A stretch of 26,669 nucleotides of DNA from a virus. The notes beneath the pieces are model-generated. The model saw nothing but the letters and a program-made list of their open reading frames with translations, was not told the DNA's origin and made no database searches. Made by a program: the position numbers and the translations under genes. The stretch spans positions 1 to 26,669 of IMG/VR virus record IMGVR_UViG_3300020465_000078; one strand, written 5' to 3'. Shown piece by piece: positions 2,578 to 26,669 of the stretch. The stretch's first letter is position 1, and each line of letters starts with the position of its first letter.

Positions 2578-2822
2578 GTGTTATCAGTTACCTACAGCAA
2601 GAGCAGCTAACAAAAGATGCAGTTATTCTGACAGGTCTTAGTGATGCAATCATGGGTTACACGGACCCGGGAGTGTTAGTCTATAGTTACCAAAAGTTAG
2701 TCGACTGCTTAATTAAAGACGGAATGTCGCGAGAGGAGGCATACGATTGGATTGCATACAACATTCTGCCTTTAGCATCTAAAGATGACGGTTTTGTCAT
2801 GCTCTACGACCTGAATGATTAA
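2574..2822 (+). CDS. 82-aa conserved phage accessory protein
   Basis: The protein has the pattern GLSDAIMGYTDPGVLVYSYQKLVDCLI(K)DGMSREEAYDWIAYNI. This pattern is familiar as a small protein in many unrelated tailed phages and host genomes: 'DAI.G....G..VYSY.K......GMS.EEA..WI.YN'. Its biochemical role is not known. It is coupled to the nuclease candidate upstream (ATGA) and overlaps the start of the terminase gene by 8 nt, so it is part of the packaging operon. Confidence 0.7.
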   Translation: MSVISYLQQEQLTKDAVILTGLSDAIMGYTDPGVLVYSYQKLVDCLIKDGMSREEAYDWIAYNILPLASKDDGFVMLYDLND

Positions 2823-4515
2823 GTGGCAGGAACACCCAGTGTTAAAGCCTCCGACTGCTGCGCAGTTGGCAAAAATGGACCCCCAAAAGGTGCTGACGTT
2901 GCACCAGCAGTTTCATTCAGCGATTCGCAATGCCGCCGATGACCCCTTAAATTGCGGGTTTTCAATGCCTCATTGGGATACCGCAGACAGTTTGGTCAGC
3001 GGGGAAGGCGCCACTAACGAGTTAATTGTGCTTGGAGGAAACCGTAGCGGGAAAACGGTCTACGGTGCGCGTAGTATTATCAAAGCGGCGACAGAAAACC
3101 CGGGCAGTTTAATTTTTGCGTTTTCACAGAATGCAGAGGTCTCAATCCGGCAGGTGCAGAAGACTGTCTACGAATGGTTGCCCCCTGAGTATCGCAAAAC
3201 GAGTCGGTCAAAATCGCATTACATTAGTTACAAGCGTGCGACCGGGTTTGCAGGCTCCAGTCTGATCTTTCCCAACGACAGTCAAATTGTCTTTAAGCAT
3301 TACACGCAGTTCCAGCAGGATCAATCTATCCTAGAGGGCGCCGAGCTTGGCAGCTTTGAAGAGAGCTTTGTGAACTGGGGCGTGTGGCTAGACGAGTATC
3401 TTTTAGGACCGGAGCTTGTGGACACGTTGCGCTTCCGATTAGCGACGCGAAATTCAAAAATGCTTCTCACCTATACCCCGCTGACTGGATACACAAATTT
3501 CATCCGTGAATATTTGCACCAAGCGGAAACGCTTGAGGAAAAACCTGCGGAGCTTCTCGACAATGAGTTGGTGCCTTTTGTGCAGCGAAGCAAGAACAGA
3601 GACGCGCACGTCGTCTATTTTCACTCCGTTGAAAATCCATTCGGGGGCTACGAGCGCATCCGCCAGGATTTGGCTAACAGTTCCCGCGACAACATTCTTA
3701 CTCGAGCTTATGGCATACCGGTTAGGTCATCTGCCACCGTGTTTCCGTTGTTCTCACGGGAGGTTAACGTGGTTTCTCCTGAGCAAATTCCGCAGGAAAA
3801 TGTAACCCGATATTTTCTATGCGATCCCGGTGGCGCAAAAAACTGGTTTTGTACTTGGGTGTCAGTCACGGCAGACGGGACGTGGTTTGTATATCGTGAG
3901 TTTCCAGCGGATGAGGCGTGGGTAGAGCACAGAGAAGGCAAGTGGAGACCCGGACCCGGGGCGCGGGGTCGTGGGCTTGGAATTCGAGACTTTGTGAAAC
4001 TGTTTTACACGCTCGAGGGCGGGCAGGTCACCGAGCATGAGGACGGCAGAATCACGACGGACACAACGGAAAAAGGAGAAACCATTTACGAGCGCATCAT
4101 CGACCCCCGTATGTCTCAGATTCAAACGCCAAGTGCTCGAGGCGGCGTAGAATCCATCCAAAGTAACTTAGACGATTTGGACTTTATTACTCATGCGTCG
4201 CTCATCGTTAAAGGGGCGCAAGGCACGGAAATTGAGCAGGGCATTCAAGCGCTCAACAACCTTATGGCATACGACCGGTCAATGCCGATAGATGCTGCAA
4301 ACCGCCCGCATTTTTACGTTTCGACAGAGTGCGAAAACGTCATCCACTCGCTTGGTGAATACACTCTTGAGGCAGGCTTACGTGACCCAAATAAGGACCC
4401 AATCGATTGCCTTCGCTACGGCGCCACGACAGGCATCTACCACATGGACGAGCAATCACTTTTGCAGCAGCAATACCAACAAAACGCAATGCCCAGCTAC
4501 GGAGCACCTCGATAA
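2815..4515 (+). CDS. terL: terminase large subunit (packaging ATPase/nuclease)
   Basis: This is the motor that pumps DNA into the procapsid and cuts the concatemer. The 566-aa product has an N-terminal ATPase with a Walker A loop GGNRSGKT (residues 74-81) and a Walker B strand ending in D193-E194 (VWLDE). A C-terminal RNase-H-like nuclease follows, with a first acidic residue D337 (YFLCDPGG) and a terminal acidic motif D531-CLRY. All expected catalytic landmarks are present and length is normal for the family. The start overlaps the upstream gene and has no strong Shine-Dalgarno, consistent with coupling. One base separates its stop from the next gene. Whether cutting is headful or site-specific cannot be decided from this sequence. 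Confidence 0.93.
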   Translation: MIKWQEHPVLKPPTAAQLAKMDPQKVLTLHQQFHSAIRNAADDPLNCGFSMPHWDTADSLVSGEGATNELIVLGGNRSGKTVYGARSIIKAATENPGSLIFAFSQNAEVSIRQVQKTVYEWLPPEYRKTSRSKSHYISYKRATGFAGSSLIFPNDSQIVFKHYTQFQQDQSILEGAELGSFEESFVNWGVWLDEYLLGPELVDTLRFRLATRNSKMLLTYTPLTGYTNFIREYLHQAETLEEKPAELLDNELVPFVQRSKNRDAHVVYFHSVENPFGGYERIRQDLANSSRDNILTRAYGIPVRSSATVFPLFSREVNVVSPEQIPQENVTRYFLCDPGGAKNWFCTWVSVTADGTWFVYREFPADEAWVEHREGKWRPGPGARGRGLGIRDFVKLFYTLEGGQVTEHEDGRITTDTTEKGETIYERIIDPRMSQIQTPSARGGVESIQSNLDDLDFITHASLIVKGAQGTEIEQGIQALNNLMAYDRSMPIDAANRPHFYVSTECENVIHSLGEYTLEAGLRDPNKDPIDCLRYGATTGIYHMDEQSLLQQQYQQNAMPSYGAPR

Positions 4516-19775: not shown

Positions 19776-22700
19776 ATGGCAGAAGAGGAAGAAGACAAGG
19801 GCCTCGTAGAATTCCTGAAAAAAAGCGCCGAAAAGGCGACAGGTTTTTTCGGCAGGTTTTCGTCGGGACAACTGTATCCCGGGCAACCTCTGATTGGACC
19901 TAAAGGCCCAGTGCGACCCGGTTCAGCGCCCGGGCTTACCGACCCTGTCGCAAGGAGCATTGTTGAACGTCAACGAAGGGCCAAGCTGCCGGATCCTATT
20001 AGAAAACGAATAGAAGCAGGAGAAGACGCTCAAGCAGCGCCCGACCCAGTTCCATTGCCGGGTCCAGTTCAAGAAGCAAGTGACTCCGAACGAACAGGGC
20101 TAGCGGCAAGTGAGCCTGTTCTATTTGATTCCGGGTTAGTAACCGTGCAAGGCAAGTCGACGCCTGCTGGGCGGGCATTGTTCAAAAACGCGCAGGCAAA
20201 GGGGCAAGACCCTAACCAAATGATTGATTTTTATGCGCGGGGATTGGTCGACGAGAATTTGCGGGTCACAGAAAGGGGCAGAATTTTTGAGGAAATTGAC
20301 AGGACTAATAGTCTAGACTCAATTTTAGCTATTAATGATCGGACAGAAGGATTCCGTTTGTATTTGGAAGCAGCGGAATCTGGTGCGGTTACCGAGTGGC
20401 AGGACCGCACAGGCGCAGGCGCAGATACGTGGCAAGAGTTTTTAGATCAAGCGGTAGAAAACTTTTTGCCTGACGCGGCAGAAGTGCTGAAACTGGTTAA
20501 AGGTTTCGTCCCGGGCGGAGCGACGTTTTACGACCGCTTGGTTAGAGATAACCCATTAGGATATTTTGGAGGGGTCGCAGGAGCAGCACTTAAACTAGGA
20601 AGAGGTAAATTAAGCAAAGAGGAAGAAGCAGAGCTTGCCCTTATGAAGGACGAGTATTTGCGAGAAGGAGTGTTCCGAACCGCTGCAAGTTATAATGATG
20701 GATTTGTTGCCGCGTTAACGCACGGACCTGGCACCAAAGAGTTTTTTAGTGACCGAGACCGAGCCGCAGCAAAATACCATTTCTGGAAAGACCAGTATGA
20801 TGTCGACAACATGGAGGCAGGTGAAGCTGTCGGTGAGGTAGTAGGATTTGCCGAAAGCGTTAAAGAAACAGTTGCAGACGATGTGAGCTTTTTTGAAGGC
20901 AAGGCAACTGCGCAAGAAGAATTAGTAGAGGTTGAAACCGCCAAGGCGAGGGCAGGGCGAAGCGTGCAAGATGCCGTTGCTTATTTAGACCAACTTGACG
21001 TTGTCGATCCGCAAAACCAACCGCGAGCAGAACAAGTAAGAGACTTAATGCTGCCGTTTAGCTCAATCGCATCTCCAGATGTAGTTTTATCAGTGGGCGC
21101 TGGTGCTGCTATTAGCGGTGCGTTTAAAATGGGCGGAAAAGTCAGCAGGTTGCGCAAAGACTTAACAGATAAAAAAGCAGATCGTCGCCGGGTTGACGCG
21201 CAGTTGCAGGCAGCGGAAGGCGCACAAAAAAGAGCAACGCCTTCTGCGCAAGCTCAACTAGCGCCCGCCAGACTAAGAGGTCCTTCTACAGCAGACGTAG
21301 CAAAGCTTCAAACGCGGCGGACAAAGCTTGATTCCGAAATTGCTAAATTAGAACAGCGCATTGGGCGCATTGACGGGACAGTGCCCGGTCGCGTTGCAGG
21401 GTTTATTGGATCGGTTGGACGCTCGGCAAGAAGCATGCCACTGCGGGCCACGGGTGCTACAGCAAGCGTGACCGGCAACATTTTGCAGAAGCTTGGCAAC
21501 ATTGTAGGACCGGTTGCGGGCGCAGTTGTTGCTGGCAGCGCAATGGGGGGCAACCCGCTTGGGTTTGGAGTCGGGTTTTTAGCAGGCAAAGCGCTTGGAC
21601 TTGGGGCAAGGGGCAAAACGCTTTCCCGGTTTGGTGAGAAAATGTCCCGGGTTGGTCAGGAGTTTAGCCGCAGGCGTATGGCATACCCGATGTTCCGCAA
21701 GTTCGCGCAGGAGGCCAAAACTAATAAGCTAAAGCAATATCATCTTGGCAGAGAAGCGGCATACGGCATGACGGTTGGACTTACCGCTAAATTTGCAAAG
21801 CTTTGGCGGGATGCGTTTTTAGGCGAGCTGCCATTTAGTTACGTCGCCTCTGGTGGTTTTTCACAGGTAGGCGGAAACTTTTTGTCTCAAGCAGCAGCAG
21901 AATCTCTGCTCATTGAGGGGCCAATAATTGGTGCAGGCAAGATGGTAGGGCGAGCTGCCGGTATGCAGCTTTCTGGCGACGTCAAAGAACACAATAGGCT
22001 TGCTTACAATGCAGCTCTTAACTTCCGCGACCAGTTTCTGACAGACCCTGACCAGCGTGCTGCTTTTGATTCGCTGCCGCCAATCGTTAAGCGGATGTAT
22101 GGCAACGCATACACCAACAACCCGGACCTAAAGATTCAGTTCATCACAGATCTTGAGGAGGGCTCTGGTTTGTATGACCCGGACAGCAACACGATTACTA
22201 TTAACCCCAACGACCCCCGAGGAGTTGAAACAATCCTGGCGCATGAGTTTCGACATCACATGGACACTCAGGGGTTTCGCCAAGCTATCATTGAAGCTGC
22301 CGTTGGACCTCGAGGGTTTTTGCGGCAAACTCCTGCAAACGAAACCGTCCAAGGAAGTGGAGAGCTAATTCCTGAATTTAAAGAGTGGGCAGAGAGCTAC
22401 AATCAGATCCGCCTTGAATCTGGGCGCAAGCCGTATGATCTAAATGACGCTGAAGAACTTGGTGACGTTGTGATGGAATGGTCCGCCTATTCGTCAATGG
22501 ACAGTGTTGCGGCAGGCTTGCGAAATAATGTTCTAATCGAATGGAGCAGACGTCACCCGTGGTTGCGTTCGTTCTACGACAGTTTGCTGGGCAGGTTTTT
22601 CCGGCAAGACTCACTTATGAACGCAGGCCTTCTGTTTGATCAGAACGGTAATCTAGCGACACAACCGGGGCTTCCCGGCATGAAAGCTCTTAAGGAGCAC

Positions 22701-25700
22701 CCCGCGTTGTCTGCGCGTCTTGAGCGCATGATGAAGGATCGCGCAGGCATTGGCCTTAGCGCAGCAGAGCTGTCTGACCTTGACGACCCAAACAGCAAAA
22801 GAAAAAAGCCAAGTCCAACTGCAATTCGTCAAGGTGACACCGAAGCTCTGAAAGAAGTGCAGCGGGACATGCACATGGATCTTAAAACTGACCAACAAGG
22901 TAATGTGGTCGAGGTCAAAGGCGTTGCAGAAATTAAACCTGAGCCTCCGCCGCGAGAGCTGCTCCCAGTCTTGCCGGACAAAGACTTCGACGCACCTAGA
23001 GTAAACGAAGGAAGGGGCACAGATAACGCTACAGACCTGACCGGGTCACTAACCGCTCCTGTATTAAATAAAGACGGCACCCGAAAAGATATCATTCCGG
23101 GGAAACCAACTGAATTAGTGCGTCGCGACGACAACGTCGAAGCGCTAAAAGCGCACTTTCGAGAAGGTTACGGTTACAACGATCTGCAACTAGGAATGAT
23201 CGATGACCTCATCGACATAATGTCTGATCCCGACCGCAGAGGCGAAGCGGTCCTGGGCTACTATTTTCCGGTTTGGAAAAAAGAACGGAAGAAAGCCCGC
23301 AAAGGAGATTGGAAACAGTATGTGCCAAAAAAAGGAATCGACGCCAAATGGTATCGGTTCGTGCCTTACGGCTTGGTGCAGACTGACGTCGGCAACGTAA
23401 TCGTCAAAGCTATTAACATGGATCAAGTGCTGCAAAACGCGCAGACAATTGCAAAGAGCAAGAAAGGTCTTAAGGCTTACCAAGGCGATGTCAGTAGCCT
23501 GATGGATGACTTTTACGAGATGGTGCGCAATCACGGGCGTAACATTCAAAATGCTACCCGATTTACCCCGGACAAATTAGCGCTGCTTAATGCCGTTTTT
23601 GGAGACGTAGGCAGAGGGCATAAAGAAGCGAACCTGCTTTTACAAAACGATGCTCAGATTTCGCAGGCAAGGTCTGCGGTGCGCTCATTTAGAATTGAGC
23701 GCTTCTCTCAGATGAACTCCGGCATCAAAGCAGGGTTTCCGTTTTCTCTCGAAAAGACGAAAGCTATGGAGATGCCCGCGCAGGATCCGCAGGCGTCTGG
23801 GCGTTTCTTTGACCCTCAAGAACCTGTTGTGAGCATGGAAAACATGCCCGGGATGAACTCCGGGGTGCTGCAAGGGTTACACTCTGCAAGCCAACAAGAC
23901 CGAAAACAGTTTGAAGACGATATTTTGGAGGCGATTGCAGACGACGAGTTTGGTGACGTGTTTGGTCGGGCAATTGGAAGAAAGGTTAAGTTGGCGGATT
24001 TAGCTGCGTCGGTTTACGTGAACAGTGAAGGCGGCATCGAAATTAATGACGCGCAACAAGTCGGAGGCTTCCAAAGTCAAGAAGAGGCAGAGCTTTATGC
24101 GCTTCTACGGGGCTTCTTTATGAAGCAAGAAGCGGTGGCGGGCAACTTGCCTCGCAAAGGTGGCGCAATGAAGGCAGCAGATTTCAAGGTTGGAAAAGCG
24201 CTCGACAAAACAGAAGTTAGCAAAGTGATGCAACAAGTGCAGACTGAGCTTGAGTCGGTCGGGCTTGCCGCAGCTAATGCCGAAGACTTTGCCTTTTACG
24301 GCAACCCTGAAGGTTTCTCTTTGGTGCATCTAGGGTTCAATGAAGACATTACCCCAGAAATACGAGACAACGTGTTTGCGGAAGTTGGTGTCCTTTTAGG
24401 GGTGCCTAAGCCTAGGAAATTTGACACAGACACTTTTTACCTAGACAACAACTGGAAGACGGAGGACGTTACAACTGATTATGGAGAAGTTAAGCAAGCA
24501 AGCCCTAATGGAGAGGCTTTCGCGCAAGAAATCGCAACTCGTGGAGGCGCCCTCGGACGATCCGATTTACTCGAGGGGGTGGCAAGTCGGGTCGGCACCC
24601 GTCTACAGAAAGTCTATGACGACTTCGCCAACCGACAACTCGGGGAACCGGGACGACAGCTCGGAGTCGAGCCAGCAGCAGAATCCGTAGGGTTCCGCAG
24701 CACCCTGACCGGGAGGGCGATGATCCCGGATGAGGGGCCTATGGGCTCCGTTGCAGTGGCACGACGTAGCGACAAAGCTACGGAAAACCCTGATCTGTCG
24801 CCGCGCCAAAAGATTGGGTCGGATCTCATCCCCTTGGTCGCAAAAGAGAGAGGGCCTAAAATTAGAAAGGCAGTCTTTGCTTTCCGCGACAAAGTAAACA
24901 GTGCGGTTCCCAAGTTTCTTGGACAAGGTGACTTGCGCGGAATAACCGGGGTAGGCAGAAAATCCTGGCGCATGACGCAGCGTCTCGCGACAAACCTTGT
25001 AGACCTGTTTAATGCAGTTCCTGCCAACTTAGTTGCAGAGTGGCGCACTTGGTATGACCGGGCCAATACGTGGGCAGAAGAGCAGTCTAAGCGGGTTTAC
25101 GGGATGACGCTTGAGACCGTGGCAGGAATGACGGCAAGAATGTCTCCCGGGACAGACTGGTTCAACAACCTCACAATGGTAGACCACACTCTGCAAACCT
25201 TTGAGGACAACCCGGTCTTTACCCAGCAAATGGTCGATCATGCTGCACAAAGGGCTTACAACGGGTATTTGCAAAGCGCGAAAGGCAAAGCTGCTACCAA
25301 CGCAGAGCGGCAGGCAGTCAAAGCAAAATTAACCCAAAGGGAAAACGATGTGGCAAAAGGCTATGTGGGCAAAAAATTCCTCGAGGTGCTGGAGCTAGAC
25401 CGCAGTGCCGCTGCAAGAGTCGTTAGGTCACATTCGGAACTAAACATCGGAAACGAGGTTAAAGATGAGACAGGCAAAGTGCGCACCGGAGAGCCCGGAA
25501 TTGGACGATTAGCGTGGACGTCCTACACTGATATTGCGCTAGCGCTAGATATGACACGGTCGCCAAACATGGAAGCCATGTCGCTGCTACTAGGAAACCA
25601 ACACAAAATACGTAGCTTTTATAACAACATCGTTGACCCTAATGACATTACCTATCAGGACGTCACTGTGGACACCCATGCGGTTGGGGCGGCGCACATG

Positions 25701-26111
25701 GCGCCATTTTCGCAAGCAAGCCCAGAGGTTTTAGCTAATTTCGGCACGTCAAATACTCTTGGAACACCTACTAAAAACGCGGCAAGCGGACTTAGCGGGG
25801 TTTATTTTCTGTATGCAGACGCATACCGCATCGCTGCTAGTCGGTTATCCCAGCAATTAGGGCAACAGGTCCTACCACGGGAGGTTCAGAGCGTAGTCTG
25901 GGAAGCAATCCGAGACCTTTACCCCGATTCATTCAAGCGGTCCAATGCTGCCGTAGAGGTACGCAAGATGCTGGATGAAGTGCCAAAAGGGAATTTGTCT
26001 ATGAAGGATGCCGTAGACCAAGTACAAGATTTCGTAACCCAATGGAGACAGACAGCAACAAAAAGGGACCCGGTAAAAATCAACCGCATTCAGGCCTTGT
26101 CCCCCCGATAG
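19776..26111 (+). CDS. giant 2111-aa polyvalent ejection protein with zincin and HhH-GPD-like domains
   Basis: This is the largest gene, single and uninterrupted. In order: an acidic and Pro-rich N-terminus (about 1-115); a helical region; a short hydrophobic part near 433-451; a coiled coil (about 458-530); a Gly/Ala hydrophobic segment near 575-610 that could enter a membrane; a zinc-metallopeptidase site AH823-E824-F-R-H827 with a possible third ligand E901 in VVMEWSAY; Pro-rich linkers; a long helical/strand middle with basic blocks (about 1160-1320); and a C-terminal domain (about 1740-2080). The C-terminal domain has MSPGTDWFNN, K1944-IRSFYNNI and VDTH (D1966). Size, position at the end of the virion genes and mixed enzyme parts match the 'polyvalent proteins' that phages inject with their DNA. 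The last 70 nt overlap the next gene. Domain calls are by motif only. Confidence 0.72.
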   Translation: MAEEEEDKGLVEFLKKSAEKATGFFGRFSSGQLYPGQPLIGPKGPVRPGSAPGLTDPVARSIVERQRRAKLPDPIRKRIEAGEDAQAAPDPVPLPGPVQEASDSERTGLAASEPVLFDSGLVTVQGKSTPAGRALFKNAQAKGQDPNQMIDFYARGLVDENLRVTERGRIFEEIDRTNSLDSILAINDRTEGFRLYLEAAESGAVTEWQDRTGAGADTWQEFLDQAVENFLPDAAEVLKLVKGFVPGGATFYDRLVRDNPLGYFGGVAGAALKLGRGKLSKEEEAELALMKDEYLREGVFRTAASYNDGFVAALTHGPGTKEFFSDRDRAAAKYHFWKDQYDVDNMEAGEAVGEVVGFAESVKETVADDVSFFEGKATAQEELVEVETAKARAGRSVQDAVAYLDQLDVVDPQNQPRAEQVRDLMLPFSSIASPDVVLSVGAGAAISGAFKMGGKVSRLRKDLTDKKADRRRVDAQLQAAEGAQKRATPSAQAQLAPARLRGPSTADVAKLQTRRTKLDSEIAKLEQRIGRIDGTVPGRVAGFIGSVGRSARSMPLRATGATASVTGNILQKLGNIVGPVAGAVVAGSAMGGNPLGFGVGFLAGKALGLGARGKTLSRFGEKMSRVGQEFSRRRMAYPMFRKFAQEAKTNKLKQYHLGREAAYGMTVGLTAKFAKLWRDAFLGELPFSYVASGGFSQVGGNFLSQAAAESLLIEGPIIGAGKMVGRAAGMQLSGDVKEHNRLAYNAALNFRDQFLTDPDQRAAFDSLPPIVKRMYGNAYTNNPDLKIQFITDLEEGSGLYDPDSNTITINPNDPRGVETILAHEFRHHMDTQGFRQAIIEAAVGPRGFLRQTPANETVQGSGELIPEFKEWAESYNQIRLESGRKPYDLNDAEELGDVVMEWSAYSSMDSVAAGLRNNVLIEWSRRHPWLRSFYDSLLGRFFRQDSLMNAGLLFDQNGNLATQPGLPGMKALKEHPALSARLERMMKDRAGIGLSAAELSDLDDPNSKRKKPSPTAIRQGDTEALKEVQRDMHMDLKTDQQGNVVEVKGVAEIKPEPPPRELLPVLPDKDFDAPRVNEGRGTDNATDLTGSLTAPVLNKDGTRKDIIPGKPTELVRRDDNVEALKAHFREGYGYNDLQLGMIDDLIDIMSDPDRRGEAVLGYYFPVWKKERKKARKGDWKQYVPKKGIDAKWYRFVPYGLVQTDVGNVIVKAINMDQVLQNAQTIAKSKKGLKAYQGDVSSLMDDFYEMVRNHGRNIQNATRFTPDKLALLNAVFGDVGRGHKEANLLLQNDAQISQARSAVRSFRIERFSQMNSGIKAGFPFSLEKTKAMEMPAQDPQASGRFFDPQEPVVSMENMPGMNSGVLQGLHSASQQDRKQFEDDILEAIADDEFGDVFGRAIGRKVKLADLAASVYVNSEGGIEINDAQQVGGFQSQEEAELYALLRGFFMKQEAVAGNLPRKGGAMKAADFKVGKALDKTEVSKVMQQVQTELESVGLAAANAEDFAFYGNPEGFSLVHLGFNEDITPEIRDNVFAEVGVLLGVPKPRKFDTDTFYLDNNWKTEDVTTDYGEVKQASPNGEAFAQEIATRGGALGRSDLLEGVASRVGTRLQKVYDDFANRQLGEPGRQLGVEPAAESVGFRSTLTGRAMIPDEGPMGSVAVARRSDKATENPDLSPRQKIGSDLIPLVAKERGPKIRKAVFAFRDKVNSAVPKFLGQGDLRGITGVGRKSWRMTQRLATNLVDLFNAVPANLVAEWRTWYDRANTWAEEQSKRVYGMTLETVAGMTARMSPGTDWFNNLTMVDHTLQTFEDNPVFTQQMVDHAAQRAYNGYLQSAKGKAATNAERQAVKAKLTQRENDVAKGYVGKKFLEVLELDRSAAARVVRSHSELNIGNEVKDETGKVRTGEPGIGRLAWTSYTDIALALDMTRSPNMEAMSLLLGNQHKIRSFYNNIVDPNDITYQDVTVDTHAVGAAHMAPFSQASPEVLANFGTSNTLGTPTKNAASGLSGVYFLYADAYRIAASRLSQQLGQQVLPREVQSVVWEAIRDLYPDSFKRSNAAVEVRKMLDEVPKGNLSMKDAVDQVQDFVTQWRQTATKRDPVKINRIQALSPR

Positions 26112-26233
26112 ATCCCAACGCTCGAGAGGAGCGGGAACTAAAGAATCCTGACGGGTCTGACCTCGACGAGTTTAGCGAGCACTATAGCCCTGCGCTGGCA
26201 AGGCAGGAGGAGCTTGAACAGGGGCTCGATTAA
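26042..26233 (+). CDS. 63-aa hydrophilic hypothetical, overlapping the giant gene's end
   Basis: This frame begins inside the last 70 nt of the giant gene and continues 122 nt beyond its stop. It encodes a charged, Pro-containing peptide (LVPPIDPNAREERELKNPDGSDLDEFSEHYSPALARQEELEQGLD) that looks like real protein past the overlap. No family is recognised and no Shine-Dalgarno is seen before ATG 26042. It would be the last gene of the late operon. Because nothing else is coded between 26112 and 26233, I keep it. Confidence 0.55.
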   Translation: METDSNKKGPGKNQPHSGLVPPIDPNAREERELKNPDGSDLDEFSEHYSPALARQEELEQGLD

Positions 26234-26330
26234 GGTCGCAACCCCGTCTTGCTATTTGACCAAATTCCTTTTGCCTTTTGCCATTAATTTGGTATCCAAA
26301 TGTCGTCTTTTGACACAAGCTGCACACTAA

Positions 26331-26348
26331 CGTATTCTATAGAATACG
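26331..26348. repeat. perfect 18-bp palindrome
   Basis: CGTATTCTA is followed at once by TAGAATACG, a perfect palindrome with no spacer, 33 bp left of the att core. A loopless palindrome is a typical dimeric operator rather than an RNA hairpin. It may bind a regulator or a recombination directionality factor. Confidence 0.6.
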
Positions 26349-26380
26349 GTAGTTGACGAAAAAGAGGGTAGGCAAATACC

Positions 26381-26403
26381 TTCGAGTCCCGTCCGCTCCG
26401 CCA
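26381..26403 (+). other. att core: 3' end of a tRNA-Asp gene
   Basis: These 23 nt reproduce the end of a bacterial tRNA-Asp gene: T-loop TTCGAGT, T-stem CCCGT, acceptor strand CCGCTCC, discriminator G and CCA. Compared with E. coli tRNA-Asp as I remember it, there is one difference (CCGTTCC). The bases just upstream (AAATACC) cannot pair with CCCGT, so this is not a tRNA gene but a tRNA-end copy. Phages that integrate into tRNA genes carry exactly such a piece in attP so the target tRNA stays intact. The repeats on both sides and a new gene 180 nt downstream favour attP over a prophage end. Confidence 0.75.
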
Positions 26404-26431
26404 TTGTTCAGTTCGTGCCAAAAGGCAACCA

Positions 26432-26451
26432 AACCCCTGAATTTAGGGGTT
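26432..26451. repeat. 7-bp stem-loop in the right attP arm
   Basis: AACCCCT and AGGGGTT flank a GAATTT loop. No T-run follows, so a terminator is unlikely. It sits between the tRNA-like core and the right-arm repeats and may be a protein-binding site or simply a DNA bend region. Confidence 0.45.
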
Positions 26452-26584
26452 GCTGCCAAATCGATTGAGTCAAATCCTGTTATTTGGACGGTCTTTTTTG
26501 CCATTTCTTTTGCCATTCGGTGGCAAAAAAGTGCGGCGGCGACCGTCTGAGATCGGGGTTTTGACCTCAACTGGACGAACAACA

Positions 26585-26669
26585 ATGAGCAGAAAAAAGA
26601 CGCCGAAACCGGCGAATAAGGACAGTGCGGACCACCGCAAATATTGGACGGCATCGGGTGACCCCAACG
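26585..26669 (+). CDS. truncated gene start, probable phage integrase
   Basis: An ATG at 26585 opens a frame that runs off the window edge after 28 codons. The product starts with a basic region (MSRKKTPKPANKD...) and continues SADHRKYWTASGDPN. Basic N-termini are usual for tyrosine integrases, whose arm-binding domain comes first, and the integrase gene normally lies directly beside attP. No catalytic residues are within view, so the assignment rests on position. The upstream GGACG is a weak ribosome binding site. Confidence 0.4.
   Translation, partial: MSRKKTPKPANKDSADHRKYWTASGDPN

Follow-up and report, generated by a model that had tools for sequence, protein, structure and literature searches.

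With high confidence, we read the segment at 26254-26528 of the window (the whole stretch analyzed, the linear virus record IMGVR_UViG_3300020465_000078, 26,669 bases long) as the attP of a phage that integrates at the 3' end of a host tRNA-Asp gene, placed just upstream of the phage's own tyrosine-integrase gene. The arm–core–arm organization proposed in the first-pass annotation is supported by the identity of the core, the geometry of the arms, and the integrase of a sister phage, and the span that it assigned fits the arms well. The element is well confirmed and of an ordinary kind, with an ordinary mechanism; the added detail concerns geometry, cassette exchange, and host. The relevant features of the window are listed here, with L089, L002, and L177 denoting contigs of sister phages:

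2815-4515, TerL gene
19776..26111, + strand, 2111-aa protein, the last large gene of the structural module; a homologue precedes attP-int in L002, L177, and L089
26042..26233, + strand, 63-aa ORF, the last gene before attP
26269..26275, + strand, P-arm site TTTTGCC (7 of 8 positions)
26276..26283, + strand, P-arm site TTTTGCCA; tandem TTTGCCA sites in L089 lie at most 2-3 nt off the same distance from the core
26326..26353, no strand, near-perfect palindrome ACTAACGTATTCTA/TAGAATACGGTAGT, left of the core
26381..26403, + strand, attP core TTCGAGTCCCGTCCGCTCCGCCA, 23 nt matching the tRNA-Asp(GTC) 3' end exactly from T-loop to CCA
26432..26451, no strand, hairpin AACCCCTGAATTTAGGGGTT that lies between the core and the P' arm and leads into GGTTGCTG
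26471..26486, no strand, inverted repeat CAAATCCTGTTATTTG (CAAATC-N-TG-NN-ATTTG), part of the second repeat family; close copy in L089
26496..26503, + strand, P'-arm site 1, TTTTGCCA, at 93 nt past the core, an offset shared by L089 and L177
26508..26515, + strand, P'-arm site 2, TTTTGCCA, 12 nt after site 1
26521..26528, − strand, P'-arm site 3, inverted, TGGCAAAA, 25 nt after site 1
26574-26581, conserved GGACGAAC, just upstream of the integrase start
26585..26669, + strand, start of the predicted integrase gene, 28 codons without the catalytic residues, cut by the contig end

The right part of the window is the end of a phage structural module comprising TerL, a portal-sized gene, capsid and tail genes, and the 2111-aa protein; the major capsid protein is of the SU10 type (PF17236, 3.6e-45, Pfam search). 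A DNA search with the large window gene gave no match among GenBank phages. The 63-aa ORF, which is the first gene to the left of the element and ends at 26233, has a near-identical counterpart in L002 and is replaced by another small ORF at the same place in L177 and L089. About 350 nt separate it from the ATG at 26585, and the short open frames that overlap the attP element were given no weight. Rfam returned nothing beyond chance hits in the att region, and the window contains no whole tRNA gene. A short tandem repeat, CTTGAGCGTGTG, occupies 640-685 in the non-coding left end.

The core occurs once in the window, and the first-pass annotation was correct in calling it an exact copy of a tRNA-Asp 3' end. 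The same 23 nt end complete tRNA-Asp(GTC) genes in many viral contigs and in Roseibacillus genomes, as the annotation had anticipated for bacterial tRNA-Asp genes, and the core thus reproduces the 3' part of a host tRNA gene exactly. This identity, together with the presence of the same core in L089, supports tRNA-Asp as the integration target. The cores of the window, L002, L177, and L089 all start with the T-loop sequence TTCGAG, and crossover is likely to occur at this T-loop start because all four begin there.

Repeated arm-type sites flank the core on both sides. The TTTTGCC(A) family noted previously is present at 26269 and 26276 to the left and at 26496, 26508, and, inverted, 26521 to the right; all three + strand copies of TTTTGCCA in the window fall within the attP element, as does one of the four copies of TGGCAAAA. 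When the flanks were subjected to dinucleotide shuffling, four copies of one 8-mer, counting both strands, appeared in 2 of 500 shuffles. We also scored each position for an 8-mer with a direct copy at +12 and an inverted copy at +25. The top-scoring position was the one precisely 93 nt beyond the core in the window (24/24, 1 of 26,629 positions), in L089 (20/24, 1 of 14,754), and in L177 (18/24, 1 of 4,783, with the motif TTTTAACG/TTTTACAC), values that measure rarity within each contig rather than the success of a blind prediction because the test was designed after the repeats had been seen by eye in the window, L002, L177, and L089. The P' arm of L002 has its direct pair at 92 and 104 and its inverted copy shifted to 126. 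The expectation that related phages would carry the same repeats is therefore borne out in part: L089 has the TTTTGCCA motif with the spacing seen in the window, but L002 and L177 use another motif at positions that are kept or nearly kept.

The second repeat family of the first-pass annotation, ATTTGG/CCAAAT, exists, and its inverted repeat at 26471..26486 recurs in L089, but its conservation is only partial. CCAAAT occurs three times and ATTTGG twice in the attP region, compared with 10 and 11 occurrences in the whole window. Taken alone, this family is weaker, and we rejected it as an independent set of arm sites because of its partial conservation. The inverted pair described as 10 bp long is real but extends over 11 bp (CTTTTTTGCCA at 26493-26503 and TGGCAAAAAAG at 26521-26531).

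Between the core and the P' arm, all four sisters share a segment consisting of GGTTGCTG followed by a GATT-CAAA stretch (GGTTGCTG...GATT...CAAA). A small stem-loop directly precedes GGTTGCTG in the window and is less regular in the sisters; this hairpin, at 26432..26451, may be a terminator or a bending element. Small stem-loops also occur in L002 and L177 at a distance left of the core similar to that of the palindrome in the window. Inspection by eye against the consensus gave no convincing IHF site between core and arms.

Judged by homology, the truncated gene that starts at 26585 probably encodes the N-terminus of a tyrosine integrase, as the first-pass annotation had suspected: L089 carries a complete PF00589 protein at the same place, and the window fragment matches the N-termini of the sister proteins. 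The L089 integrase (465 aa, 587-1984) matches PF00589 at 4.3e-18, with 66.1 bits against a cut-off of 27.1. The 28 residues encoded by the window are 52% identical to it over the aligned part and score 76 against the L177 N-terminus and 56 against that of L002, whereas none of 2000 shuffles reached either value (maxima 45 and 47, respectively). Pfam assigned no family to the partial integrases of the window, L002, and L177; their identity as tyrosine recombinases comes through the L089 protein and L203, a 422-aa PF00589 protein from a genome of the Roseibacillus family. The L177 integrase, an open frame of 271 aa, is 40% identical to that of L089 (273 aligned positions) and 32% identical to L203; its predicted structure had a mean pLDDT of 41.6, too poor for use. 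In L089, L177, and L002, an N-terminal block of ~80 aa lies ahead of the remainder of the integrase. The window, L002, and L177 contigs all break inside the integrase gene (about 85, 447, and 813 bases in, respectively), as if assembly fails at a variable cassette.

The sister phages place the element in a wider genomic context. L089, which was obtained through the 23-mer search, starts within the portal gene and keeps the gene order of the window through the large protein; next come a small ORF, the tRNA-Asp core and arms found in the window, and the complete integrase. In L002, the C-terminal 459 aa of the large protein are 98% identical to those of the window, after which the att-int cassette diverges to a tRNA-Gln core with TTTTACCA arms. 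The layout is also shared by L177, which has a second tRNA-Gln core and belongs to a phage with a TerL 75% identical to that of the window. G004 and G005 (contigs L175 and L176) are more distantly related and carry a different PF00589 integrase in inverted orientation and a third tRNA-like core, TTCGAATCCTWCCGCAGGAGCCA, which was found in 0 of 260 Roseibacillus-family genomes. Excisionase is represented among the relatives by a PHROG hit in G005 and an excisionase-like ORF in L089. This L089 ORF lies after int, in a group at 3388-4164 with an HTH ORF and, on the other strand, a small DNA-binding-protein-like ORF; homologues of the excisionase-like and small DNA-binding-protein-like ORFs lie near attP in G005.

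From these comparisons we raise the possibility that core and arm motifs change with the integrase while the P'-arm geometry stays fixed (+93, +105, and inverted +118), that relatives may switch between tRNA-Asp and tRNA-Gln by swapping a compact cassette that shares the stem-loop and GGTTGCTG, and that the group possibly infects Verrucomicrobiota. With only four sister sites to compare, the joint variation of core, arm motif, and integrase is suggestive.

By analogy with lambda-type systems, the N-terminal domain of the integrase would hold the TTTTGCCA arm sites and its catalytic part would act at the core shared with the tRNA, probably at the T-loop or beside it, with the DNA between core and arms presumably bent. 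Crossover between attP and attB would rebuild an intact tRNA-Asp gene because the phage supplies the same last 23 nt, and an attL-like junction would consist of tRNA-Asp joined to TTGTTCAGTTCGTGCC. Binding, bending, recombination, and lysogeny are inferred; the core identity, the arm sites with their fixed geometry, and the integrase beside them in the sisters are observed.

We weighed several other explanations of the element. The contig ends 266 nt past the core, which leaves a short right side that could belong to a phage–host junction, the attL or attR of a prophage, with host chromosome as the right flank. This possibility is very unlikely: arm sites lie on both sides of the core, and in L089 the core and arms sit inside the phage genome, flanked on the left by the structural module and on the right by genes for the integrase, an excisionase-like protein, and regulators. 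Moreover, the right flank of the window gave only short gapped matches to Roseibacillus flanks. We give almost no credence to the idea that the core is functionless, a tRNA fragment that arose by chance or decay. Although only 23 nt match, and L089 matches the same host tRNA plus flank over 28 nt, the match in the window is exact, lies between arms and next to int, and has counterparts at the same place in the identical core of L089 and the tRNA-Gln cores of L002 and L177. A role of the repeats in regulating int or neighboring transcription, rather than as integrase arm sites, would be in keeping with the nearby hairpins and with the tight regulation that integrase genes can be under, as is reported for KplE1 intS (PMC2951348). 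We consider this role improbable, however, as the copies flank the core on both sides at fixed distances and the motif differs between the tRNA-Asp and tRNA-Gln types with positions kept or nearly kept.

A reading compatible with a genuine attP is that the phage is essentially lytic and integrates rarely or transiently without stable lysogeny, which we regard as possible though doubtful. Stable lysogens do not form when the T7-like cyanophages S-TIP37 and P-SSP7 integrate into tRNA-Leu, and integration of S-TIP37 needs both int and attP (PMC8776855). TerL relatives of the window's phage are abundant in viral contigs (at least 562 confirmed, 562 of the first 600 candidates), and a search by TerL for a close prophage gave no confirmed case among 84,980 species genomes and no match among 260 Roseibacillus-family genomes. 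Arguing against an essentially lytic phage are the HTH and small DNA-binding-protein-like genes after int in L089, the excisionase-like gene in G005, and structural modules of this kind, distantly related, within Verrucomicrobiota genomes (G403). With the attP read as above, the phage would be temperate; this claim of the first-pass annotation is drawn from the attP and is limited by the lack of a close prophage in those searches and by the cyanophage precedent.

Similar sites are known in other phages. The attP of phage lambda is not known to use a tRNA core, whereas the core of the window is the end of tRNA-Asp. The window resembles lambda attP/Int in having a core between P and P' arms with repeated sites and in its putative heterobivalent tyrosine integrase, a class whose N-terminal domain binds arm sites and whose catalytic part acts at the core (PMC4880445). 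The cluster K mycobacteriophages CrimD, Anaya, Adephagia, and Pixie have attP 5' of a tyrosine integrase and share with the window paired arm-type repeats (11-bp in cluster K) flanking a core of tmRNA or tRNA origin, a putative stem-loop that lies between this core and P3 and is noted there as a putative terminator, and an arm consensus that differs between close relatives, with a related phage using a different attB (PMC3203893). Cluster K differs in its phages and hosts, its tmRNA and tRNA-Lys targets, and its arm motif and spacing, and integration is proven there, whereas the attP of the window is predicted from sequence. In marine T7-like cyanophages (PMC8776855) and uvMED phages (PMC3861242), attP is likewise a host tRNA segment near int. 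The cyanophage attP, in contrast, lies downstream of int and matches tRNA-Leu (PMC8776855). In the uvMED phages, tRNA-derived attP sites served for host assignment, including that of G11 to Verrucomicrobia (PMC3861242). The window terminase had a single match in the GenBank phage collection, C75C1 (OQ984151; 39% identity over 94%), whose major capsid protein is 41% identical to that of the window and in which we found no PF00589 integrase. The element offers a precise attP whose predicted arm sites are open to bench tests. Across the four sister sites, the arm motif varies along with the integrase N-terminus, and this set could help to decode arm recognition.

The first-pass annotation had also taken the core as a handle on the host, for which the tRNA-Asp core alone is insufficient because it is too widespread: the 23-mer occurs in 67 of 260 Roseibacillus-family genomes and, within whole tRNA-Asp genes, in many viral contigs. 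The tRNA-Gln cores of the sisters are more specific. Across 84,980 species genomes, the exact L002 core was found at seven loci, only in tRNA-Gln of Roseibacillus/Akkermansiaceae, and the exact L177 core was found once, in Roseibacillus. The window 23-mer is also present in four of the eight genomes with L002 or L177 cores, in two of them as a whole tRNA-Asp. TerL-profile matches occurred in 22 of 388 Verrucomicrobiota genomes (about half strong, many weak), compared with 0 of 385 genomes of a comparison phylum (that of a Flavobacteriales MAG). G403, a distant relative on a 3.75-Mb Verrucomicrobiota genome contig (L249/L250), has TerL, portal, capsid, and tail genes in the order of the window. 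A 402-aa ORF beside a 24-nt repeat in G403, considered as its integrase, had no Pfam match and was not used as attachment evidence. The likely host group is thus marine Verrucomicrobiota near Roseibacillus, the label 'marine' following from the marine nature of the genus Roseibacillus. Different members of the phage group may have different hosts, as the G004/G005 core differs and is absent from the family genomes. With this assignment, a group of uncultured phages that has hardly any relatives in GenBank would be linked to a host phylum with few described phages.

The first-pass annotation had further predicted prophages whose attL and attR share the core. None was found for the window's phage in the 84,980 species genomes or the 260 genomes of the Roseibacillus family, but an L006-like phage does occupy the same tRNA-Asp core in Roseibacillus. 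In two Roseibacillus genomes, a right arm matching that of viral contig L006 (94/100 and 91/100) comes after the tRNA-Asp end; in another, an L006-like left arm precedes the core and chromosomal flank follows it; and in a fourth, the tRNA-Asp site is apparently empty. Because other phages use the same core and such junctions exist in Roseibacillus genomes, Roseibacillus tRNA-Asp looks like an integration hotspot. The genomes with attL-like and attR-like junctions and the apparently empty site are L205-L208, and viral contigs L006 and L024 carry the same 23-nt tRNA-Asp core with different arms.
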